Position numbers and translations under genes: made by a program
Source: Dehalococcoidia bacterium
GTDB lineage: Bacteria > Chloroflexota > Dehalococcoidia > Lucifugimonadales > UBA3495
Length of the DNA stretch: 64,000 nucleotides
Reading direction: 5' to 3'
NCBI GenBank assembly: GCA_021295965.1
Contig: JAGWBI010000005.1
Location: forward strand, 1,340-65,339
Notes under the pieces: model-generated
What the model was told of the DNA's origin: nothing
The model's database searches: none
What the model saw: only the letters and a program-made list of their open reading frames with translations
Shown here: piece by piece, positions 38,993 through 52,247 of the stretch
Layout: every line of letters begins with the position of its first letter
Numbering within the stretch: the first letter of the stretch is position 1

Positions 38993-41293
38993 CTAGTTGA
39001 TGTCCTCCGCCAGACCGTCGGCGCCGACTCTGACGCCGATGATGGGCGCGGCCTTCTCGTTGTAGATTTGCACGGCCTGGCTGTTGGGACCCCCGGTGCG
39101 CTCCACCCAACGGGGCAACACGTTGTTGCGGCCGGCCTGGAACAGGGCGTCCTGGATCTCCTGGGAGAACTCGATGTACTCCATGCCGCCCTCGGTGTTC
39201 TCGTCGATGCCCTCCTGGGCCCAGACGGTTTCCACCCACTCGCGAGAGGTGCTCTGGTGGCGCTCACCCTCCTCCCTGATGATGGCCTGGAGGTCGGCGG
39301 GAATGGCGTCCCAAACTTCCTTGTTCATGGTGATCCAGGTCACGCCGATGGCAACGATGGGGCCGACCATATAGTCGGTGACCTCGTACCAGCGCACGCC
39401 GGAGCCGCAGGTGCCGCAGGATACGGCGGCGTCCAGCACGCCGCGTTCCAAGGCGGTGTACACGTCGGCAAAGGCCATGAACTGCGGTTCGGCGCCCATG
39501 CCGTCCAGCAGGTCGCTGAGTACGGTGCTGTGGCTGCGGGTTTTCAGGTCCTCGAAGTCGGTCAGCGTCCTCAACTCTTTGGACGAAAAGTAGTAGTTGC
39601 TCTCGTAGTAGTTCTCCATGATGACGATGCCGTTGGACTGTTGCTCGATGATGCGGTGAACATCCTCCCGGGTGGCGTCGATGACGGCGAAGTTGGTTTC
39701 CGAGTCGGGGTACAGACCCCAGAGGTTGGCCATGTCGATGATGGGCAGGTCGCCGCCGATATAGCCGGAGTAGATTTCGGCCAGCTCCATGGTGCGGTCT
39801 TCAATGAGACGCAACGAGTCCGGGCCGGCCAGGCCCAGTTCGGGGAAGGAGCTGATCTGGAATTCAACCTGCCCCTCGGTGCGGTCGCGCACGCGCTCGA
39901 TGAAGCCGTCAATACCCTGCTCCTCCTCGGTGGAGTAGATCAGCGTGCAGGGGTTGCCGGTGCGGTTGATGCAGACCAGCTGGATTTCGATGTTCTCGCC
40001 CTGGGAAACCAGCTCGGTCTCCTTGGCCATCATCATGCCGTCCATGGCGTGGGCGGCGCCGTCGGGGCCGATGCTGACGCCAACGATGGGGCCCACTTTG
40101 TCGTTGTACAGTTTCACCGCCGCGCTGTCCGGCCCGCCGGTGCGCTGCACCCAGTTGGGCAGGATCACTTCCAGAGCGACCTCGCGCATCTTGGCCTGCA
40201 CCTCGTCGCTGAAGGGACGGTGGATCATTCCTGATTCCACGTTGGCCGTAACGCTGATCACGTTCCATTCTTCAATGAGCTTTTTACGGGCGAGTTCCTC
40301 GTATTCGCGGCCCACCTCCAGCGTGATCTGCTGGATATCGGGCGGCAGTTGCGCCCAGGCGTCGCCGCTCATGGTGTAGTAGGCCACCGCGACGGAACCG
40401 ACGATGGGGCCGTAGAGGTAGTCGGTCACCTCGTACCAGCGCTGGCTGTGTCCGGGTTCGCCGCCGGTCACGCCGCCGTCCAGCACGCCGCGCTCCAGGG
40501 CGGTGTACACGTCGGCGAAGGCCACGAACTGCCCTTCCGCGCCCAGGCCGGCCAGCAGGTCGCCGAGGATGGTGCTGTGCTGGCGGATCTTCTTGTTATC
40601 AAACTGGTCCAGCGAATCCAATTCTTCCCGGCTGAAAATGAACTGGTTGGGGTAGTACTGGCGCATGATGGGCTGGCCGCCGGTGGTCTCCTTGAGCACC
40701 GCAACCAGGTCCTCGTGGATGGCGTCGGTCAGCTCCAGGTGGGCCTCCTCGCTGGGGGACAGGCCCCAGAGATTGCCCACGTCCAGCAGCGGCAGATCCC
40801 CGCCCACGTATCCGCTATAGACCTCGGCGACTTCCAGAGTATTGTCCCCGATCAGGCGCAACGTGTCGCCGCCGGCGATGCCCAGCTCGGGGAACGACGA
40901 CAGCGTGAACTGCAACTGGCCGCCGGTGCGGCTCTCGATTTCGGGAATAAAGAAGCTGTTGACCAATTCACACGCGGCGACGTTGCGGTTGATGCAGACC
41001 AGCTGAAACTCGAAACTTTCGCCCTGGGTTTCCAGCTGGGTCTCCTGCGCCATGGCGGTGGTGGCCTGGGGCGCCGCCGTGGCAGCTTGACCACCGGTTG
41101 CCGGGGCGGTTCCGGCCGTGGCTGCGCCGCCGGTGGCTGCGCCGCCGGTGGCTGCGCCGCCGGCTGGTGTCTCGGGCGCGGGCTGCCCGCTGCCCCCGCA
41201 GGCCAACAGGGCAACAACCAGCGTGGCCAGCAGCGCGGGCAACAGGAATCTGATACCAGTCTTGCGGAATCGATCAGCAGTTGTCTTGCTCAT
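38993..41293 (-). CDS. double-domain TRAP substrate-binding lipoprotein (protein A)
   Basis: The 766-residue protein starts with a lipoprotein signal ending LLAC (Cys32), then a Gly/Ala/Thr/Pro-rich linker. Two DctP domains follow (about 90-415 and 435-766). Both contain VCINR, a following C, SSFPELG, YSG-Y-GGDLP and FADVYTALERGVLD. The second domain shows SCGTCG, absent in the first. Single DctP domains are the family norm, so this is an internal duplication. GGAGG stands 4 bases before the ATG. It probably binds an organic acid for the dctQM pair at 49816. Confidence 0.85.
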   Translation of the reverse strand: MSKTTADRFRKTGIRFLLPALLATLVVALLACGGSGQPAPETPAGGAATGGAATGGAATAGTAPATGGQAATAAPQATTAMAQETQLETQGESFEFQLVCINRNVAACELVNSFFIPEIESRTGGQLQFTLSSFPELGIAGGDTLRLIGDNTLEVAEVYSGYVGGDLPLLDVGNLWGLSPSEEAHLELTDAIHEDLVAVLKETTGGQPIMRQYYPNQFIFSREELDSLDQFDNKKIRQHSTILGDLLAGLGAEGQFVAFADVYTALERGVLDGGVTGGEPGHSQRWYEVTDYLYGPIVGSVAVAYYTMSGDAWAQLPPDIQQITLEVGREYEELARKKLIEEWNVISVTANVESGMIHRPFSDEVQAKMREVALEVILPNWVQRTGGPDSAAVKLYNDKVGPIVGVSIGPDGAAHAMDGMMMAKETELVSQGENIEIQLVCINRTGNPCTLIYSTEEEQGIDGFIERVRDRTEGQVEFQISSFPELGLAGPDSLRLIEDRTMELAEIYSGYIGGDLPIIDMANLWGLYPDSETNFAVIDATREDVHRIIEQQSNGIVIMENYYESNYYFSSKELRTLTDFEDLKTRSHSTVLSDLLDGMGAEPQFMAFADVYTALERGVLDAAVSCGTCGSGVRWYEVTDYMVGPIVAIGVTWITMNKEVWDAIPADLQAIIREEGERHQSTSREWVETVWAQEGIDENTEGGMEYIEFSQEIQDALFQAGRNNVLPRWVERTGGPNSQAVQIYNEKAAPIIGVRVGADGLAEDIN

Positions 41294-41356
41294 ACTCCCT
41301 CCGTTCGGCATATTGTCCGCCGCACTGGGCGGTAGCCGTGATTCAGACCGGACGCA

Positions 41357-41385
41357 AGTTTATTTCAGCGACATATTGTTGTCAA
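41357..41385 (-). promoter_or_regulatory. promoter of TRAP protein A
   Basis: On the minus strand TTGACA (41385-41380), 17 bases, TAAACT (41362-41357), 64 bases before the ATG at 41293. Confidence 0.6.
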
Positions 41386-41464
41386 AGGGCATTCCTTACA
41401 TCGCCAACAGGTCGTTTTGTTACGAAAACCGTAAATGTCGGAAACGAGACCCGCCACCAAAGAA

Positions 41465-41491
41465 GCGGGGCGGGTTCAGAACCCGCCCCGC
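41465..41491 (-). terminator. strong hairpin terminator after TRAP protein B
   Basis: Perfect 12-base arms GCGGGGCGGGTT and AACCCGCCCCGC with a 3-base loop lie 29 bases after the gene end. On the minus strand the hairpin is followed by TTCTTT. A closely similar hairpin stands at 54198-54225. Confidence 0.65.
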
Positions 41492-41519
41492 CGCATGACG
41501 TAAACTGTTGACCGAACGG

Positions 41520-44003
41520 TTACTCGGTGGCTGACGCCGTCCCGTCGGCGTTGATCTCCACCTTGACGATGGGCGCAACCAGTTCGTTGAACAGGACGGC
41601 AGCCTCAGAAGTGGGGCCGCCAACCCGGTCCACCCAGCCCGGCACCACGTTTTGGATGGCGGACTGGCGCTGAGCGTTCTGCATCTCTTCGGTGAACTCC
41701 ACCAGCTTCATGCCCTGTTCGATGTTCGAGTTGATCGCGTTGGGGGCGAAGTGCTCGAACAGCAACTGCCGGTTGAGGTAGGCGTGGCGCGCGCCCTCCT
41801 CCAGGATGATGTTCTGGAGGTCCTTGGGCATCTGGTTCCAGCGGTTTTCGCTGATGGAGAACCAGCTGTGTCCCACGGAGACGATGGGACCGACCAGGTA
41901 ATCGGCCACTTCGTACCAGCGCAGGCCGTGTCCGCAGGACCCGCAGGAGATGGCGCCGTCGATGACGCCCCGCTCCAGGGCGGTGTACACGTCGGCGAAG
42001 GCGATGAACTGGGGTTCGGCGCCCATGCCGGAGAGCAGGTCGCTCAACACGGTGCTGTGGCTGCGGACTTTGAGGCCCTGCAGGTCCTCCAGGCTGGCCA
42101 CGTTGGGCTTGGCGAAGATGTAGTTGTGGGCCGTCATCATGTAGGCCACCTGGATACCGCCGTTCTGTTCGGTAACCTCGGCCATCTTGGGCTGGATGGC
42201 GTCAATGACAGCCAGCTGAGCGGTCTGGGTGGGGTACAGGCCCCACAGGTTGCTCATGTCCATGATGGGGAAGTCGCCGCCCACGTAGCCGGAGTAAATC
42301 TGCGCGGAGTCCAGCGTACCGTCCTCGATGAGGCGCAGCGAGTCGGGCCCAGCGATGCCCAGTTCAGGGAAGGACGAGACTTCAAAGATTACCTGTCCAT
42401 TGGTCCGGCGCTTCACCCGTTCCACGAAGCCGATGTCCTCGGTCTCGGCGTAGTTGCCGATGGCCAGTCCGCAGTCAACCAGGGTCCGGTTGATGCAGGC
42501 CATCTGCATCTCAAACTGCTCTCCTTCCGTCACCAGGGGAGTCAGGTTGAAATTGATCCCGTCTTCCAGGCCACAGGACTTGCCCGACGGGCTGCCGCCG
42601 CCGTGGACATCTGGCACCGTTGCGGACGCCTCGCCGTCGCAACGCGTGGCGGCGATGGCTTCCTGGCCGCCGTTGGGAGAGTCGACGATGCTGATGCTCA
42701 CGTCGCCAACCTTCCGGTCACCGTCATCCATCATCATCGAGGCGGAGGTTTCGCTGGCGGTGCCATCGGGATTGATGACCACGCCGACAATGGGGCCAAC
42801 CTTTTCATTGAAGATGTTGACGCCTTCGGAGTTGGGGCCGCCGGCGCGCTGCACCCAGTTGGGAATGATCAGGTTCAGCGCGGTCTCACGCATCCTGGCC
42901 TTCACGTCGTCGGGGAAGTCGGAGTACTCCATTCCTTCCTCAACATTGAGGTTGATGCCGTCCGGATCCCATTGCTCTTTAAGCAGGCGCAGATTTTCGG
43001 CTTCGTATTCCTGGCCCACTTCCTTGAGAATGGCGCGGTTTTCGTCGGTCAGCTGGGCCCATTTTTCACCATTGACCGTGGTGTAGGTCACGCCGATGGA
43101 GCCGACGATGGGGCCGTACAGGTATTCGGTGACTTCATACCAGCGCTGTCCGTAACCGGGGGTCCCGCCGGTTACGCCGCCGTCCAGCACACCGCGTTCT
43201 AGAGCGGTGTACACGTCGGCGAAAGCGACGAACTGACCCTCGGCGCCGAGGCCGGCCAGCAGGTCGCCCAAAATAGTGCTGTGCTGGCGGATCTTCTTGG
43301 CATCAAAGGCGGGCAGGTCGGGCAGGGGTTCGCGGCTGAAGATGTACTGGTTGGGGTAGTAGTTGCGGAAGACCGGCTCGCCGCCGGTGGCATCGCGGAG
43401 GATACGGATCATATCCTCTTCAATGGCGTCGGTCAGCGCGAGGTGGGCGTCGTTGCTGGGGGACAGTCCCCACAGGTTGCCGACGTCGATCACCGGCAGG
43501 TCACCGCCGACGTATCCGGAGTAGATCTCCGCGAATTCCAGGGTGTGGTCTTCCACCAGGCGAATCGTGTCAGGACCGCCCAACCCCAGTTCGGGATACG
43601 AAGAGATTTCGATGGTCACCTCGCCGTTGGAGCGTTCCGCCACGCGAGGGGCGTAGAAGTCCCGAATGAGCTCACAGGGACGCAGGGAACGGTTGATGCA
43701 GACCACCTGGAGGGTGATGGCCTCCTGGACCTCCGGCGCCGGAATCGGAGTTTGCGTGGGAGGCACCGGGGTGGGTGTATTCTCCGGCCCGGTAGCGGCG
43801 GCCGGCGCCGTCTGACCGCCGGCTGCCGGGGTCGTTCCGCCGGTAGCGGCGCCAGGCTGCGTTTGCGCTGCCGGCTGCTCATCGCCGCCGCCTCCGCAAG
43901 CGGCCACGACCGTCATCAAAAGAGCAATGGCAACCATGGCGACCAGTGCTCTCCAGGGCAGGGACGCCCGCAGGTACGGGCGTGATCGGTACGAGTTCAG
44001 CAT
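41520..44003 (-). CDS. double-domain TRAP substrate-binding lipoprotein (protein B)
   Basis: The 827-residue protein is built like protein A: lipobox VVAAC (Cys36), a Pro/Ala/Thr linker, then DctP domain 1 (about 90-415) and domain 2 (about 505-827). The linker between them is longer and has two extra cysteines (RCDGEA and KSCGLEDG). Domain 2 contains SCGSCG. Each domain is closer to the same-numbered domain of protein A than to the other domain of its own protein. The ATG at 44003 follows AGGAT. It probably shares a substrate group with protein A. Confidence 0.85.
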   Translation of the reverse strand: MLNSYRSRPYLRASLPWRALVAMVAIALLMTVVAACGGGGDEQPAAQTQPGAATGGTTPAAGGQTAPAAATGPENTPTPVPPTQTPIPAPEVQEAITLQVVCINRSLRPCELIRDFYAPRVAERSNGEVTIEISSYPELGLGGPDTIRLVEDHTLEFAEIYSGYVGGDLPVIDVGNLWGLSPSNDAHLALTDAIEEDMIRILRDATGGEPVFRNYYPNQYIFSREPLPDLPAFDAKKIRQHSTILGDLLAGLGAEGQFVAFADVYTALERGVLDGGVTGGTPGYGQRWYEVTEYLYGPIVGSIGVTYTTVNGEKWAQLTDENRAILKEVGQEYEAENLRLLKEQWDPDGINLNVEEGMEYSDFPDDVKARMRETALNLIIPNWVQRAGGPNSEGVNIFNEKVGPIVGVVINPDGTASETSASMMMDDGDRKVGDVSISIVDSPNGGQEAIAATRCDGEASATVPDVHGGGSPSGKSCGLEDGINFNLTPLVTEGEQFEMQMACINRTLVDCGLAIGNYAETEDIGFVERVKRRTNGQVIFEVSSFPELGIAGPDSLRLIEDGTLDSAQIYSGYVGGDFPIMDMSNLWGLYPTQTAQLAVIDAIQPKMAEVTEQNGGIQVAYMMTAHNYIFAKPNVASLEDLQGLKVRSHSTVLSDLLSGMGAEPQFIAFADVYTALERGVIDGAISCGSCGHGLRWYEVADYLVGPIVSVGHSWFSISENRWNQMPKDLQNIILEEGARHAYLNRQLLFEHFAPNAINSNIEQGMKLVEFTEEMQNAQRQSAIQNVVPGWVDRVGGPTSEAAVLFNELVAPIVKVEINADGTASATE

Positions 44004-44077
44004 GGGCAATCCTCACGTTAACAGCATAGCGCTGCTGGCGTTTGCCAACAGCTCCAACGATAAAGTCTCAGCGAAAT

Positions 44078-44106
44078 ACGCTACCAGCGGTTTGGCATGA
44101 TGTCAA
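44078..44106 (-). promoter_or_regulatory. promoter of TRAP protein B
   Basis: On the minus strand TTGACA (44106-44101), 17 bases, TAGCGT (44083-44078), 75 bases before the ATG at 44003. The -10 is weak but the -35 is perfect. Confidence 0.45.
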
Positions 44107-44272
44107 CGATATTAAGGTATATCTGGAAGTGGTTTCCCTCCGTGTAATACGTTGCGATGTAGTTTGTCATTACTGGTCTTATTGACGCATTTATTGATCG
44201 TGGGACAAGAAACAATAAGGTAAAATCCGGGATTGGAATACAACAGGCTTCGGCAACGGGAGGAACTGGACC

Positions 44273-45055
44273 ATGCCATATCCAGGATTGGATCTAACGG
44301 GACGCAAGGCGCTGGTCACCGGCGCGGCGCGGGGTATCGGCGCGACGTTGGCTTTGGGGTTGGCCCAGGCGGGAGCCGACGTGGCGGTGAGCGATCTGGC
44401 GACGGACGAATCCTGGGAGGGATTGTCCGAAACGGTAATCCGCATCCGAAACGAGGGGCGCGTCGGCTTAGCTTGCGATCTCGACGTCCAGGACGTGCCG
44501 GAGATCAACCGCACCGTCCGGCGCATGGCAGATGACCTGGGCGGACTGGACATACTGGTGAACAACGCCGGCATTCGGCGGCGCGCTCCCGCCCTCCAGG
44601 TCACGGAAGACGACTGGGACGCGGTGCTGGACACCAACCTTAAAGGGGCATTCTTCTGCGCCCAGTCCGCGGCCCGGCTGATGATCCCCAACGGGTTCGG
44701 ACGCATCATCAACATCGCATCGCAGATGGCGGTGGTGGGCGCGGTGAACCGGGCGGCCTACTGCGCCAGCAAGGGCGGACTGGCGAACCTGACGCGGGTG
44801 TTGGCGTTGGAATGGGCCCAGCACGGCGTGACGGTGAACGCCATCGGCCCAGGTCCCACCACCACGCCCGGCCTGCTGGAGGCCGACGACCGGGACGCCG
44901 ACGAGGTGGCGGCGGAAATGGCGATCAAGATGCCCCTGGGCCGGCGCATGGACCCCGAGGAACTGGTGGGCGCGGCGATCTACCTGGCCAGCGACTCGGC
45001 CGGCGCGACGACGGGACACCTGCTGGTGGTGGATGGTGGGTGGACGGCGTTGTAG
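44273..45055 (+). CDS. short-chain dehydrogenase/reductase
   Basis: The 260-residue protein is a classical SDR: TGAARGIG (cofactor loop), NNAGIRRR, catalytic S in IASQMAVVG, Y-x-x-x-K in YCASKGG, and the closing GATTGHLLVVDGG. It is FabG/gluconate dehydrogenase-like and probably uses NAD(P)H on a hydroxy or keto group. GGGAGG stands 10 bases before the ATG. Nothing shows the substrate. The LLM oxidoreductase follows on the same strand. Confidence 0.88.
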   Translation: MPYPGLDLTGRKALVTGAARGIGATLALGLAQAGADVAVSDLATDESWEGLSETVIRIRNEGRVGLACDLDVQDVPEINRTVRRMADDLGGLDILVNNAGIRRRAPALQVTEDDWDAVLDTNLKGAFFCAQSAARLMIPNGFGRIINIASQMAVVGAVNRAAYCASKGGLANLTRVLALEWAQHGVTVNAIGPGPTTTPGLLEADDRDADEVAAEMAIKMPLGRRMDPEELVGAAIYLASDSAGATTGHLLVVDGGWTAL

Positions 45056-45096
45056 TATCATTTGACATTGGGTCAAAACGCCACCATCGTCCCACC

Positions 45097-45124
45097 GAGA
45101 TTGCCACGCTGCGCTCGCAATGAC
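45097..45124 (-). repeat. REP-like element, family 3 (inverted copy)
   Basis: The reverse complement reads GTCATTGCGAGCGCAGCGTGGCAATCTC, differing at two of 28 positions from the copy within larC. It stands just before the LLM oxidoreductase gene. Confidence 0.75.
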
Positions 45125-45148
45125 CGGTTGGTGCGGGAGGATAATCGT

Positions 45149-46279
45149 ATGAAGTTCGGGATGTTTTACGAGTTGCAGATGCCCCGGCCGTGGACGGACA
45201 CGGCGGAGTACGACACGCTGTGGAACGCGGTGCGGCAGGTGCAGTACGCCGAGGAAATGGGGTTCGAGCGGACGTGGCTGGTGGAGCACCACTTCCTGAC
45301 CGAGTTCGCCCACTCGTCGGCGCCGGAGGTGATGCTGGCGGTGATGGCCCAGCACACCAAGAAAATGCGCCTGGGTTTCGGCGTGGTGCTGGCGCCGGTG
45401 CATCACCCCTTGCACGTGGCGGCGCGGGCCTCCACCCTGGACATCCTGAGCGACGGACGCGTGGACGTGGGCGTCGGCCGCACCAAAGGGCCGTACCAGC
45501 TGACGCCCTTCGGAACGGACGTGGCCCAGACCCAGAGCATGATGGTGGAAACGCTGGAATGCCTGCCCCGGATGTGGTGCGACGAGGTCTTCAGCCACGA
45601 CGGCGAGAACTGGACGATACCGCCCCGGGAGGTCATACCCAAGCCGTTGCAGCAGCCCCACCCGCCCCTGTGGATGGCCTGCACCCAGGAGGACACCTTC
45701 CGCCTGGCCGGACAGCTGGGCGTGGGCTGCCTGGTAAACACGCTGGGCGGCACCGATAAGACCCGGGGGCTGGTCAACGCCTACTACGAGGCTATCGAGA
45801 ACCCTAACCCGGTGGGCCGTTTCGTGAACCGGCAGGTGGTGGCCTCCACCATCGGCTTCTGCGACGAGGACGATGTCAGGGCCCGGCAGAAGGGAGCAGA
45901 GGTCGCCGCATGGTACCTGGAGCAGAGCCGCGCGCGGTTTGTGCTGGAATGGGCCGGCGTTGATCCCGACGCGGTGCCGGACGAGTACAAGTTCTACGTG
46001 CAGGGCGGCGCGGTGCGCGGCGGCGGCCCGTCCCGTCCGTCGGAGGACCCGCAGCAGCAGAAGCCGCCCACGCCGGAGGAACTGCTGGCCGGCGGCGGCT
46101 ATTGCGTGGGCGACCCCGACGCCTGCATCCGGGTGATCGAGGAGTTCGAGGCCATGGGCGTGGACGAGATCATGCCTATCTTCCAGGCCGGATACGCGAT
46201 GCACGAAGAGGTTATGAACTCAATACGGCTGTTTGGCGAGTACGTGATACCGCATTTCCGCGCGAAAGAAAGCCGATAG
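45149..46279 (+). CDS. LLM-class flavin-dependent oxidoreductase
   Basis: The 376-residue protein is a luciferase-like TIM-barrel monooxygenase: MKFGMFYELQMPRPW at the start, W-x-x-EHHFLTEF in residues 45-60, RMRLGFGVVLAP-like RLGFGVVLAPVHHP and GRVDVGVGRTKG. These enzymes use reduced FMN or F420 to oxidise small organic substrates. GGGAGG lies 8 bases before the ATG. The SDR upstream may share its pathway. Confidence 0.85.
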   Translation: MKFGMFYELQMPRPWTDTAEYDTLWNAVRQVQYAEEMGFERTWLVEHHFLTEFAHSSAPEVMLAVMAQHTKKMRLGFGVVLAPVHHPLHVAARASTLDILSDGRVDVGVGRTKGPYQLTPFGTDVAQTQSMMVETLECLPRMWCDEVFSHDGENWTIPPREVIPKPLQQPHPPLWMACTQEDTFRLAGQLGVGCLVNTLGGTDKTRGLVNAYYEAIENPNPVGRFVNRQVVASTIGFCDEDDVRARQKGAEVAAWYLEQSRARFVLEWAGVDPDAVPDEYKFYVQGGAVRGGGPSRPSEDPQQQKPPTPEELLAGGGYCVGDPDACIRVIEEFEAMGVDEIMPIFQAGYAMHEEVMNSIRLFGEYVIPHFRAKESR

Positions 46280-46299
46280 GGTGTGGCGACTGTTACGTT

Positions 46300-46408
46300 G
46301 TCATTGCGAGTCCGCCTCTGGCGGATGGCAATCTCGTTGCCGGATGTAAGGTCGTTTTGCTCGCGCGATTGCCATCCGCCGCAGGCGGACTTCGCTCCTC
46401 GCAATGAC
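46300..46408. repeat. MITE-like element with family 3 ends
   Basis: A 109-base element begins GTCATTGCGAG and ends CTCGCAATGAC, with two inner half-palindromes (TCCGCCTCTGGCGGA and TCCGCCGCAGGCGGA) in inverted order. It lies between the LLM and DUF362 genes. Confidence 0.75.
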
Positions 46409-46440
46409 ACCCCTGATATGTTGCGATTCGGGAGGTATTG

Positions 46441-47580
46441 ATGACTACTGTTGAGCAGTTAGGGACCAGCCCGCTGGCAGCGGCAGGGCGGAGAACCGGC
46501 ACGCCGGTGGTATCGGTGGTTGCCACCACGCCGGAAATGGTGCTGGCCGATGTGGAGCGGGCCATGCGTCTCGCCGGCGCAGAGCAAATACTGTCACCGG
46601 AGCAGGAAACGCTGCTGAAGATCAACATCTCCTGGCAGCACTGGTATCCGGGATGTTCAACGACGCCGTGGCAGTTGGAGGGTGTGGTCTGCGCCTTGCA
46701 GAACCTGGGGCATCGCGATCTCATCGCGGCGCACAACGGGACGGTGGTGGTGGATTCCTTTGAGGGGGAGGTCAACAACAAGCACAAGCCGGTACAGGAC
46801 AAATACAACCTGCGCACGGTGCATCTGGACACGCCGCCGGAGCCGTGGGTGCGCTACGAACCCAAGGCGGAGATGCTGGTCCTGGATGACATCTACCCGG
46901 AGGGCATCGAGATACCGGAGATATTCGCCGGCAAGAACATCGTGCATTTGCCCACCATGAAAACCCACGTGTTCACCACCATGACCGGCGCGATGAAGAA
47001 CGCCTTCGGCGGCCTGCTCCACCGCAAGCGACACTGGACCCACTCGGTGATCCACGAAACGCTGGTGGACCTGCTGGCGATACAGCAGGAAATCCACCCC
47101 GGCATCTTCGCCGTAACCGACGGCACCTTCGCCGGCGACGGCCCGGGTCCCCGGGCCATGCGTTGGCACATCAAGAACCGCATCGTGGCCGGCGCCGACC
47201 AGGTGGCCGTCGATGCGGTGGTAGCGTCGATGATGGGCTTCGATCCGCTGTCCCTCCGGTTCATCCGCCTGGCCCACGAGCGCGGCCTGGGCGTCGGCGA
47301 TATGCGCGACATCGAGGTCGTCGGCGACGAACCCGACATCAGCCGCGTCAACTGGAACTTCGCCGACAACGAAAACACCTTCGCCAGCCGCGGCCAGAAG
47401 ATGATCTACTGGGGGCCGTTGAAGCCGCTGGAAAACGCGCTGCTGCGCTCCCCGCTGGCGGCGTGGGCCTACGCGGCGAGCAATCTGTACCACAACGGGT
47501 ACTGGCTTAATACGATTGGGAAGGGGCGGGTGAAGAAGGCGCTGCGGACGGAGTGGGGGCGGTTGTGGGAGGGCTATTAA
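46441..47580 (+). CDS. DUF362 domain protein
   Basis: The 379-residue protein matches DUF362: an opening beta-alpha part, KINISWQHWYPGCSTTPWQLE, the region NIVHLPTMKTHVFTTMTGAMKN, and AVTDGTFAGDGPGPRA. The iron-sulfur extension of many DUF362 proteins is missing. Function of the family is unknown; some are suggested to act in cofactor or anaerobic metabolism. GGAGG stands 5 bases before the ATG at 46441. Confidence 0.75.
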   Translation: MTTVEQLGTSPLAAAGRRTGTPVVSVVATTPEMVLADVERAMRLAGAEQILSPEQETLLKINISWQHWYPGCSTTPWQLEGVVCALQNLGHRDLIAAHNGTVVVDSFEGEVNNKHKPVQDKYNLRTVHLDTPPEPWVRYEPKAEMLVLDDIYPEGIEIPEIFAGKNIVHLPTMKTHVFTTMTGAMKNAFGGLLHRKRHWTHSVIHETLVDLLAIQQEIHPGIFAVTDGTFAGDGPGPRAMRWHIKNRIVAGADQVAVDAVVASMMGFDPLSLRFIRLAHERGLGVGDMRDIEVVGDEPDISRVNWNFADNENTFASRGQKMIYWGPLKPLENALLRSPLAAWAYAASNLYHNGYWLNTIGKGRVKKALRTEWGRLWEGY

Positions 47581-47627
47581 GCGGCTGATGGGCGTTGGGC
47601 TAGAATGGATGAGCTGAGGTTTTTGAT

Positions 47628-49001
47628 ATGTACATTACCAAGATGAAGGTGGAAAGCGTGCCGCCCTTCACGAGCCGGGTTGAGTTCGAGTTTGACAGGC
47701 ACGTGAACGTGTTCGTGGGTCCGAACGCGGTTGGAAAAACCGCCGTATTACTCGGTCTGTCAAAAATTCCGTCAGCCCCGCCATATCGGTGCGTAAATTA
47801 TTTCGGTGATTCCGGTCGACAGGAGCTTTCAGTAAGCCCGGATTGGCCGGTGGAACATGATGAACAGGCGGGTCGCTGGGCTGACGATCCACCTGGACCG
47901 AAATGGGATGAAATTCCCTTCGTCTATGTTGGGTCAACACGGTTGAATTTGCCGGAACAAGCGGACGTATTAGGCGACATTGGTGAAGTTCACCCAGTGG
48001 GCTCGCCGATCGTGCAACAGGCTATTTTCGAGCCAGTAGTGGCTACCGGCAGTAACGGAAGGCCCAACACATTCGACTCAATAATAGTTAAGTCAGCCAT
48101 AGCCAGTGAGATTTGGAAGTTGTCTGAACCGGAGATTGGACCGGGATTAGATCCGATTTTGTCAAAAATGAAGTACGAGTTCTTAAGCAGGCAGCAGTTT
48201 AATACTGCGATAGAACTAGGATTGCGATGTGCACGCAGCATTTGCAACGAGATCATCACTAGCGACAGGCCGCGCAATTTTGTAGAACCTGGTGAAGGCG
48301 ACATAATAGAGCATCTCGGGGCCACTCCTCCGGTGATGCATCGTGGTATGGGCATTATGACGGTCGATGATGGTATGTGGTACAACGATGGACCACTATA
48401 TGCCGGCAATCTGAGCGCGGGTTCACAGGGAACGCTCATGTGGGTGTGGCTCCTAGCGCTAAAGATGGTTCACCATTACAGATATAGAGCTGGCTGGGAG
48501 AAGCAGCCGGCGATTTTCCTGATTGACGAAATCGAAAATCACCTTCACCCCACCTGGCAGCGTCGCGTCATCCCCACCCTGCTGGAACATTTCCCCGGTT
48601 TACAGATATTCGCAACCACGCACTCGCCCTTTGTGGTAGCCGGCCGGAAGAAAGGGCAGGTGCATATGCTGAAACGCGACGCCGACGGCGTGGTCACCGC
48701 CAGCACTAACGAGCACGACATCATCGGCTGGACCACGGACGAAATCCTGCGCACGTTTATGGAGGTTGACGAACCTACCGACCAGCAGACCATTGACCGA
48801 GCTAATCGTCTGCGGGAATTGCGCGGTAAGGGAACACTGAGCGACGCCGAAAGGGACGAAATGGACGAGCTGCGCCGTCAGGTCAACGAGGACTTTATGT
48901 CCAGCAGCACGCCATTGGAGGCGCAGCGGGAACGTTATGGCGATATGATGCTCGAGTTCCTGCGCTCCCGTCAGTCTGATTTATCCCAGGACGGCAGCTA
49001 G
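47628..49001 (+). CDS. ptuA: Septu-like ATPase PtuA (module 2)
   Basis: The 457-residue protein is an ABC-type AAA ATPase: Walker A GPNAVGKTA, signature LSAGSQGTL, Walker B IFLIDEIENHLHPTW and ATTHSPFVV. The stretch 47740-48500 is AT-richer and poorly matched to copy 1; from Walker B to EPTD the two are almost the same at protein level. After that the ends differ. TGAGG lies 8 bases before the ATG. Followed by an HNH gene. A defence role is inferred. Confidence 0.72.
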   Translation: MYITKMKVESVPPFTSRVEFEFDRHVNVFVGPNAVGKTAVLLGLSKIPSAPPYRCVNYFGDSGRQELSVSPDWPVEHDEQAGRWADDPPGPKWDEIPFVYVGSTRLNLPEQADVLGDIGEVHPVGSPIVQQAIFEPVVATGSNGRPNTFDSIIVKSAIASEIWKLSEPEIGPGLDPILSKMKYEFLSRQQFNTAIELGLRCARSICNEIITSDRPRNFVEPGEGDIIEHLGATPPVMHRGMGIMTVDDGMWYNDGPLYAGNLSAGSQGTLMWVWLLALKMVHHYRYRAGWEKQPAIFLIDEIENHLHPTWQRRVIPTLLEHFPGLQIFATTHSPFVVAGRKKGQVHMLKRDADGVVTASTNEHDIIGWTTDEILRTFMEVDEPTDQQTIDRANRLRELRGKGTLSDAERDEMDELRRQVNEDFMSSSTPLEAQRERYGDMMLEFLRSRQSDLSQDGS

Positions 49002-49017
49002 GCTAGGCGACGAGCCG

Positions 49018-49655
49018 ATGCGCTGGATTGACCGGGGGCCGGAGCCGGACGGTGTGGCCGGCTACGCCCGTCAGTTCACGCCGGGGTGGGTTGACTACTT
49101 CCAGGGTGGAATCGGCGGCCGGCCTACTGATTCATACTGGCGAGAGTTTAGGGAGGTGCTAGGCAGCCGCTCCGGCAACATCTGCTGGTATTGTGAACGA
49201 CGCTGCCAGCAGGCACCGTTGATCATTTCCGTCCGTTGAGCCGCTTCCCGGATCTGGCCTACGAATGGGCCAACTGGATTTTCAGTTGCCGCAGATGCAA
49301 CGAGGAAAACAAGCAGGACCAGTGGCCCGGCACGGGCTATGTTGATCCCTCCGCGCCGGAACCCCAGGAACGGCCCGAGCGATATTTCGACTATGATCCC
49401 GCTACCGGGGAAATAATCCCACAATCCGGCTTGCCCGCGAGCGATCGCGGGCAAGCCCTGCAAACCATAGACGATTTGGGGTTGAACCAGCTGGACGTCC
49501 GCTTTTATCGTCTAGACTGGACGCGCCGGTTTCTCTCGGACTTCAACACACTCCCCTCAATGGAGCGACAGGCATTTGCCGATTTTTCCACCCGTACCGG
49601 AATGGAGTTTGCTGGCGCATCGCTTATGGCGGTTCGGCGCTTGCCTCAGCGATGA
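49018..49655 (+). pseudogene. ptuB: Septu-like HNH endonuclease PtuB (module 2), frameshifted
   Basis: The first frame (49018-49239) reads MRWIDRGPEPDGV and CWYCERRCQQ, as in TIGR02646/PtuB, then stops. The missing core continues in another frame: TVDHFRPLSRF is encoded from 49215 and goes on to CRRCNEENK and the end at 49655. The shift needs one added base between about 49205 and 49217. So either a 1-base deletion has broken the gene or the sequence has an error. Restored, the protein would be about 212 residues. Confidence 0.75.
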
Positions 49656-49662
49656 CGCATTC

Positions 49663-49691
49663 TTGACATCCTTTTTTGGGGCGCATAGACT
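49663..49691 (+). promoter_or_regulatory. promoter of the dctQM genes
   Basis: TTGACA (49663-49668), 17 bases, TAGACT (49686-49691), 124 bases before the dctQ start. The -35 is perfect. Confidence 0.65.
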
Positions 49692-49815
49692 GCCCAAGCG
49701 TATTGAGACGCCTGATTTTGTGAATGTTCCGGTTGAAATCGGGTATCTTGCGTCTCATGCTGCGACCTCGCCAGGCTCCTTTTGAAGAGACCCGAATGAA
49801 ACCCGGAGGCCCCCG

Positions 49816-50490
49816 TTGAGCACTCAAGCCGTTCAGCCCACGGCGGACAACCAGCCGGCCACCATCACCATAACGCGAGCCATCTATAAGATGGACGGTG
49901 GATTGGACTACGTTTATCGCATTCTCGGCTATGTTTGCGGAACGTTGCTCCTTTTGCTCGGCCTGTTCATCACCTACCAGGTGATCGCTCGCAAATTGGG
50001 TGGGCCAATGGCGCCGGGCATGGACCAGCTCAGTGGCTATGTGCTGGCATTCGCGGGGACCTGGGCGTTTTCCTATTCGCTCCGCACCGGCTCCCATGTG
50101 CGCATCGACGTGCTGCTCCCGCTGTTCTCCCGCATTCATCCCTATATGCGTTCCGCCGCCGACTGGCTGGCGTTGGGATCGGTGGGTTTCTTTGGCGCCA
50201 TCACCGCCTGGAAGACGTGGGAAGAGGTATTAGAGTCGTACTGCATCAGCAACGACCCGGCCACGGGAGCCTGTATTCAGGCGTTGACCAATACCTACCC
50301 CCTGACGCCCCTCTGGATACCCCAGACGGTGGTGGCCATCGGGTTCACGATGCTGGCCTTCACGTCCTTCCAGTGGATGCTGAGCATGGTGGTACGCGGC
50401 ATTTTGGAGATCATCCACAAATCCCGCGGCGGCGACGTTGCGGACCTGGTGACCACCGAAAACGTCCAGGAAGCCGCGTCGGGCGTCTAG
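49816..50490 (+). CDS. dctQ: TRAP transporter small permease DctQ
   Basis: The 224-residue protein starts at TTG 49816, with GGAGG 7 bases upstream; no ATG fits. It has four membrane helices (about 36-57, 72-93, 119-140 and 174-199) with the DctQ marks GGPMAPGMDQLSGYVLAFAG and SYSLRTGSHVRIDVLLPLF. It forms the membrane complex with DctM. The binding protein gene is not adjacent, but two binding lipoproteins lie 6-11 kb before on the other strand. Confidence 0.88.
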   Translation: MSTQAVQPTADNQPATITITRAIYKMDGGLDYVYRILGYVCGTLLLLLGLFITYQVIARKLGGPMAPGMDQLSGYVLAFAGTWAFSYSLRTGSHVRIDVLLPLFSRIHPYMRSAADWLALGSVGFFGAITAWKTWEEVLESYCISNDPATGACIQALTNTYPLTPLWIPQTVVAIGFTMLAFTSFQWMLSMVVRGILEIIHKSRGGDVADLVTTENVQEAASGV

Positions 50491-50564: not shown

Positions 50565-52247
50565 ATGGCAATCATCACCGCTTTCAGCATGATGGGGGTC
50601 TTCTTCCTCATTGGACTGTACGTCGCCGGCGCCCTGGGGGTGCTCTCGCTGGTGATGATGCAGGCGTTTTCCGATGCGCCGTTGTGGAACATCCTCGGCA
50701 ACAAAGCCTGGGAGAGCAACACCAACTTCATCCTGGTGGCGGTGCCGCTCTTCCTGCTGATGGGCGAGCTGATGCTGCGCTCCGGCATGGGCGAGCGGAT
50801 GTACGGCGCCCTGTCGCGCTGGCTGGTGTTCCTGCCCGGCGGACTGCTGCACACCAACATCGCCTCCTGCGCCGTGTTCGCCGCCTGCTCCGGCTCCAGC
50901 GTGGCCACCTCCGCCACCATCAGCCGGGTTTCCCTGCCGTCCTTCCGGCAGCGTGGCTACAGCGAACGCCTGGTGATCGGCTCCCTGGCCGCTGGCGGCA
51001 CCCTGGGCATTCTGATTCCACCCAGCATCGGCCTGATCATCTACGGCGTGCTGGTCGAAGAGTCGATTGGCCGGCTCTACATGGCCGGGTTCTTCCCCGG
51101 CTTCCTGCTGGCGTTCGTCATGATTCTCATGATGGTATTCACATCCATAGTCGCGCCGCGCACGGCGCCTATGGACGAGGAAGTTAAGCGCCTCTACCGT
51201 GGCTGGTTCAATGGATTGGGCATCCGCCGCTACAGCGAAGAGCAGTTGAACGTTCTGCGCCAGGAACAGGCCACCGAAGCGGGCCTGACTGACCTGGCGG
51301 AACGCAAGGCCTATCGCCGTGGCCGCTCTACGCTCAACTATTTGGAAGCCACCTCCGAGTGGCTCCGCATGATCGGCGAAGCCTTCGTCGGCCTGGTCGC
51401 CATCATACCCGTGATCATCATCATCGCGGTGGTGCTGGGCACCATCTACCTGGGCATTGCCACGCCCACCGAGGCGGCGGCCTTCGGCGTAAGCGGAGCG
51501 CTGATAGTGGCGGCGGCCAACGAACTGTACAAGCGCGTTCTGGGCACCTACTCCAGCTGGGGCCAGGCGTTCCGGGCGGTGTACCTGATGCTGCTGGATG
51601 CCATCATCTCCACCGTGCGCACCTCGTCCATGATCATGCTCATCGTCATGGCGGCCTTCACGCTTAGTTTTGCCTTCGCGCGCCTGGGCATTTCCCAGGA
51701 CATCTCGGAGTGGATCACGGGTCTGAACCTCAACGCGCTGCAGTTCGTGATAATTCTGGTGTTCTTCTACCTGCTGCTGGGCACCTTTATGGAAAGCTTC
51801 GCGATGCTGGTTACCACCATCCCGATCCTCACCCCGGCGCTGGTCAACGTGGGCGTGGACCTGGTTTGGTTCGGCATCATCATGGTGATCCTGGTAGAGG
51901 CGGCGTTGATCAGCCCGCCCGAGGGTATCAATCTGTACATCCTCCACGGAGTAAGACAGGACGTGGACGCCCAAATGGCGGAACAAACGGCAGCCGCACA
52001 GGCTGCCCTGCAGGAAAGTACCATTACCGATGTGTACATCGGTGTCCTGCCGTTCATGGGCTGTATGGCGATGGTTATAGCACTTTTGTTCGCTTTTCCT
52101 GATATTGCCTTGTGGGCGCCATGTCTCATCTACGATGATCCAAGCCGGGATTTCCTCCAGCACATTAATGTGGAACGAGATGCCGCCGGGTTCTGGGAGC
52201 AAGTGCAGTATTGCTCCTCCGAGTTCCGACCGCGTGCCTACGAGTAG
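50565..52247 (+). CDS. dctM: TRAP transporter large permease DctM
   Basis: The 560-residue protein is a multi-helix (about 12) permease with GLYVAGALGVLSLVMMQAFS, VPLFLLMGELMLRSGM, GGTLGILIPPSIGLIIYGV and ESFAMLVTTIPILTP, all typical of DctM. It is longer than the usual 430 residues because of a hydrophilic insert (about 200-265) and a 65-residue tail. It uses a sodium gradient to import acids held by the binding protein. The gene follows dctQ by 74 bases. Confidence 0.9.
   Translation: MAIITAFSMMGVFFLIGLYVAGALGVLSLVMMQAFSDAPLWNILGNKAWESNTNFILVAVPLFLLMGELMLRSGMGERMYGALSRWLVFLPGGLLHTNIASCAVFAACSGSSVATSATISRVSLPSFRQRGYSERLVIGSLAAGGTLGILIPPSIGLIIYGVLVEESIGRLYMAGFFPGFLLAFVMILMMVFTSIVAPRTAPMDEEVKRLYRGWFNGLGIRRYSEEQLNVLRQEQATEAGLTDLAERKAYRRGRSTLNYLEATSEWLRMIGEAFVGLVAIIPVIIIIAVVLGTIYLGIATPTEAAAFGVSGALIVAAANELYKRVLGTYSSWGQAFRAVYLMLLDAIISTVRTSSMIMLIVMAAFTLSFAFARLGISQDISEWITGLNLNALQFVIILVFFYLLLGTFMESFAMLVTTIPILTPALVNVGVDLVWFGIIMVILVEAALISPPEGINLYILHGVRQDVDAQMAEQTAAAQAALQESTITDVYIGVLPFMGCMAMVIALLFAFPDIALWAPCLIYDDPSRDFLQHINVERDAAGFWEQVQYCSSEFRPRAYE

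Follow-up and report, generated by a model that had tools for sequence, protein, structure and literature searches.

Lipoproteins with two DctP domains each in a Dehalococcoidia bacterium, and their possible role as tandem binding proteins of a TRAP transporter

Genes A and B each encode a lipoprotein that carries two complete DctP domains. Both genes are located on the reverse strand of the window, the whole stretch of 64,000 nucleotides analysed here, which originates from a Dehalococcoidia bacterium. TRAP transporters are normally taken to consist of one binding protein with one domain for one main substrate. A and B may represent lipid-anchored heterotandem binding proteins of one TRAP transporter, whose domains present different organic acids in turn to DctQM; the chances of this reading being correct are judged to be about even.

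Architecture and integrity of the paired domains

The features of the two genes are listed below by their positions in the window.

38993..41311, (-) strand: gene A, lipoprotein with two DctP domains, 772 aa (ORF, Pfam, NCBIfam, AlphaFold2 model)
41198..41209, (-) strand: lipobox of A, LLAC, Cys38 (sequence)
41033..41197, (-) strand: tether of A, low-complexity Ala/Gly/Thr, low pLDDT (sequence, model)
40040..41032, (-) strand: domain 1 of A (A1), type 1, arginine R243 at 40583-40585
38996..40009, (-) strand: domain 2 of A (A2), type 2, arginine R592 at 39536-39538
41520..44009, (-) strand: gene B, lipoprotein with two DctP domains, 829 aa (ORF, Pfam, NCBIfam, AlphaFold2 model); alternative start at the ATG at 44003
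43896..43907, (-) strand: lipobox of B, VAAC, Cys38 (sequence)
43725..43895, (-) strand: tether of B, low-complexity (sequence, model)
42744..43724, (-) strand: domain 1 of B (B1), type 1, arginine R241 at 43287-43289
42534..42743, (-) strand: inter-domain linker of B, about 70 aa, two Cys, low pLDDT
41523..42533, (-) strand: domain 2 of B (B2), type 2, arginine R649 at 42063-42065

Both proteins start with a hydrophobic signal containing the lipobox; the tether behind it is 55-57 residues long and enriched in Ala, Gly, Thr, Pro and Gln. The profile PF03480 matches two stretches in each protein (E 5.2e-53 and 6.4e-51; 180.7 and 173.8 bits against a gathering cut-off of 23.4), and NCBIfam TRAP_S1 likewise finds two matches each in A and B. 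These double matches, together with the Cys38 lipoboxes and the tethers, confirm the preliminary description of two full DctP domains behind a lipobox and a low-complexity linker. By every sequence test, A and B belong to the DctP family. Their two complete domains depart from the usual form of one domain per chain, which is not a condition of membership. While A1 and A2 are joined by about 10 residues, the inter-domain linker of B is conserved across the B orthologues and contains an HGGGSPSG motif; a Pfam search of this linker matched no family. Domain 1 of A is closer to domain 1 of B (63% identity) than to its own partner A2 (49%), as had been noted before. The remaining identities are 53% for A2-B2, 47% for B1-B2, 48% for A1-B2 and 50% for A2-B1.

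AlphaFold2 modelling of A and B yields two complete, confident domains each with disordered tethers, and the pTM values of 0.52 and 0.49, respectively, leave the relative placing of the domains unfixed. The A1 and B1 models align to DctP7 (2pfy) with Z scores of 35.7 and 35.0 over 300 residues, and the B2 model aligns to the solved structure 4n4u with a Z score of 31.3. A2 matches 2pfz by sequence (E 1.7e-14) and also has the DctP fold according to the secondary structure of its model. In SiaP, Arg-147 binds the ligand carboxylate and is needed for high-affinity binding; it is present in 96.8% of 6142 sequences (PMC4646407). Alignment to solved proteins places an equivalent of this residue in all four domains (R243, R592, R241 and R649), and the arginine is also kept in nearly all relatives. 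It predicts a carboxylate ligand. Outside the pair, another double protein (L049:6976-9675) has lost the conserved arginine from its domain 2 (KVFSHD), unlike its L044 relative.

The median dN/dS between species is 0.08 for A1, 0.07 for A2, 0.07 for B1 and 0.08 for B2, compared with 0.09 for DctM and 0.08 for DctQ. By this measure, purifying selection acts on all four domains as strongly as on DctM. A pseudodomain or a lost ligand site in A or B is ruled out by the arginine, the dN/dS values and the fold. The concern that one domain might lack a ligand cleft is likewise answered by the presence of fold and selectivity arginine in four of four domains, and both domains of each protein look functional as judged from sequence and models.

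A division of roles, with substrate delivery assigned to one domain and docking, regulation or structure to the other, would be in line with the arginine-free domain 2 of L049 and with the accessory N-terminal segments that are common in this group of binding proteins. Non-binding parts have a precedent in a dimeric TAXI binding protein that possesses an additional domain (PMC12344293). Such a division is nevertheless improbable for A and B, where both domains possess the arginine and are under equal purifying selection.

Distribution and history of the fusion

The window stems from a metagenome-assembled genome (3.23 Mb, 86 contigs, 86.6% complete), and fragmentation of this kind could in principle allow neighbouring genes to be joined by an assembly or binning error. 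The same double ORFs recur, however, in several independent assemblies, including three single-contig chromosomes (G003, G007 and G010), and are therefore due neither to chance nor to misassembly. The artefact raised as a possible objection in the preliminary description is thereby refuted, its remaining probability being negligible.

Within the genus, 9 of 14 genomes, counting the window's own, possess intact double-DctP genes. B is broken or fragmentary in three sister genomes (G002, G005 and G006; loci L047:6168-8668, L048:7928-10215 and L053), reflecting either decay or sequencing error. In G008, the locus runs off the end of a contig, and G011 possesses single-domain genes only. The records of the relatives are metagenome genomes of Dehalococcoidia or SAR202. 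The owners of these genes are uncultured SAR202-type bacteria, which presumably feed on dissolved organic matter. Most of them presumably derive from marine sponges, judging from isolate names and PMC6306507.

The search for the same fusion in other genomes, proposed at the outset, returned orthologues in sister species and further doubles elsewhere in the order. Within the order, doubles are present in the family to which the window belongs and also in f19, another family, where one genus has them. The f19 doubles (L090, L091 and L092) are lipoproteins encoded near dctM, with 81-87% identity between their two domains. Since they share only about 21-24% identity with the domains of the window, they result from an independent fusion. 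A double of 888 aa in a second genus of the window's family (G014) most likely arose by yet another independent fusion, as each of its domains falls beside a single-domain protein outside the A/B clade in the tree. A sample of 150 genomes from the phylum contained 20 genomes with DctP besides that of the window, with no match in a reading frame longer than 521 residues, and thus no double DctP outside the lineages already found. In a plasmid search, a weak proxy for other phyla, the best ten listed records match over about 0.9 kb, corresponding to one domain. Single-domain binding proteins are indeed the rule in the samples searched, namely the phylum, the order and the best ten listed plasmid records. 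Tandem arrays of single-domain genes exist in related genomes (L077, L080 and L085) and are a plausible source of the fusions. Single-domain DctP lipoproteins of the group (L003:766-2457 and similar) carry a 200-residue N-terminal extension, for which a Pfam search gave no match.

In the domain tree, A1 and B1 are sisters (support 100/99). Another double family (L044 and L049) has its domain 1 as sister to the A2 clade and its domain 2 grouped with the B2 clade. Among constrained trees, an exclusive A2+B2 clade is rejected with a p-AU of 2e-43 and an A1+A2 clade with a p-AU of 5e-5. The latter value rejects, for A, the model of a separate internal domain duplication in A and in B. A fusion followed by one gene duplication is insufficient as an explanation, given the rejection of the exclusive A2+B2 clade. 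Several relatives show other domain combinations. G007 encodes a hybrid of A1-type and B2-type domains with a B-type linker, the A of G010 consists of A1 followed by an A1-like domain (A1-A1'), and G003 and G008 contain a single A2-type lipoprotein. These versions and the interleaving of A2 and B2 with domains of other doubles in the tree indicate that domains were swapped. Hence, the earlier proposal that the fusion preceded the gene duplication is upheld in part: the sister relationship of A1 and B1 and the rejection of A1+A2 agree with it, whereas the lack of an exclusive A2/B2 clade and the exchange of domains do not. The phylogeny points to an old fusion, with the fusion-first order possible for A and B, and to domain exchange having been common since then.

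Linkage to dctQM and proposed function

The permease genes are located on the opposite strand, about 6 kb from A and B.

49816..50490, (+) strand: dctQ, small TRAP permease (profile match; directly downstream of A in related genomes)
50565..52247, (+) strand: dctM, large TRAP permease (profile match)

In four genomes of the same genus (G004, G010, G012 and G013; G010 as a single contig), B, A, dctQ and dctM are contiguous. The single-contig G003 has a double-domain B, a single-domain A2-type gene, dctQ and dctM in this order. Compared with the closed G003 (L037), an 11 kb segment of the window (38993-49815) containing A, B, SDR, luciferase-like, DUF362 and AAA genes is cleanly inverted between larC and dctQ. 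Because of this inversion, the binding-protein genes are divergent from dctQM and apart from it in the window. A search for inverted repeats at both ends of the inversion found none. In otherwise similar operons, dctM is of two diverged types of about 560 and 625-643 aa (L037, L038, L041 and L095 versus L042, L043, L045 and L096). The large permease has thus been exchanged, with dctQ remaining similar.

The pairing of A and B with the dctQM of the window is suggested by the operons of the relatives and by the fact that this dctM is the only one found in the 86.6% complete genome of the window. A and B could also scavenge for other uses or for another transporter. The inversion that parts them from dctQM, the incomplete genome and the doubles of G007, which do not adjoin dctQM, would be compatible with this. 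Set against the operons in several relatives and the single DctM, such a use has only a slim chance of being correct.

According to the alignment, the segments lining the cleft differ between the domain types. Type 1 domains (A1 and B1) have PNQ, KIRQHST and GGxPG. The corresponding segments are ESN, KTRSHST and SCGTCG in A2, and AHN, KVRSHST and SCGSCG in B2, which also has Gln for Glu in the AEIYSG segment. Within each domain type, these segments are conserved across species. The differing signatures of domain 1 and domain 2 favour different ligands. As A and B have the domain 1 type in common and differ in domain 2, one specificity is probably shared and the second differs.

Alternatively, the ligands of the two domains might be identical or nearly so, and the tandem would raise capacity by providing more sites per anchor and a higher local concentration at DctQM. 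The domains are 47-63% identical, share the arginine and are largely alike in fold, and the highly similar domains of the f19 doubles fit a simple doubling in that genus. In A and B, however, the pocket-near segments differ consistently between domains 1 and 2, and a purely capacity-related role is considered unlikely for them, albeit credible.

In the heterotandem reading, two DctP domains that differ in specificity would be kept at the membrane by the lipid anchor and the flexible tether. After closing on an organic acid via its conserved arginine, each domain would take its turn in docking on the single DctQM elevator. One transporter could thus be served by perhaps three specificities, namely the shared domain 1 type and the two differing domains 2. 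The arrangement would probably allow each transporter to take up more substrates, and it would keep the local concentration of loaded domains high. As the QM part of TRAP transporters is a monomeric elevator (PMC10774421), it can accept only one domain at a time. A pair of domains is not essential, since a single A2-type protein replaces A in some relatives. More broadly, A and B may be part of a modular, lipid-tethered system, in which double-domain proteins arising from repeated fusion and exchange feed one DctQM, so that a single secondary transporter handles several substrates, and domain swaps give new specificities. This wider proposal is made with slightly less than even confidence.

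Comparison with known systems

No description of tandem DctP proteins was found in a limited search of the open-access literature, which is not proof of their absence. Among ABC importers, some are known to have two binding domains arranged in this way. The DctP-type binding proteins (PF03480), such as SiaP, DctP6/DctP7 and IseP, have the fold, the selectivity arginine and the operon with dctQ and dctM in common with A and B. The known members comprise one domain per chain, whereas A and B contain two, in addition to an N-terminal lipid anchor and a long tether. TAXI-GltS BP0403 (PMC12344293) and fused TAXI-GltS resemble A and B as TRAP-type lipoprotein binding proteins with an unusual domain architecture. 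BP0403 differs in belonging to the TAXI family, in combining one binding domain with an unrelated domain, and in its GltS permease.

The ligands of A and B would reveal the diet of their uncultured SAR202-type owners. The tandem system would also offer a natural experiment on the ability of a monomeric elevator to accept different domains, and on what is gained by tandem sites. While each of its parts is familiar, the architecture of A and B is unusual and testable.

The mode of action of the tandem may be likened to that of GlnPQ, an ABC importer of Lactococcus lactis. The tandem domains of GlnPQ bind different amino acids independently, and the length of the linker affects the transport rate (PMC8025302). 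In GlnPQ, as in A and B, a single chain carries two distinct binding domains that a linker keeps at the membrane; they serve one importer, as is proposed for A and B. A and B do not belong to the GlnPQ class, which comprises ABC transporters with amino-acid-binding domains of an unrelated family fused to the permease; they are separate lipoproteins with a TRAP permease. If true, a TRAP transporter that receives its substrates from tethered tandem domains would be to secondary transporters what GlnPQ is to ABC importers.
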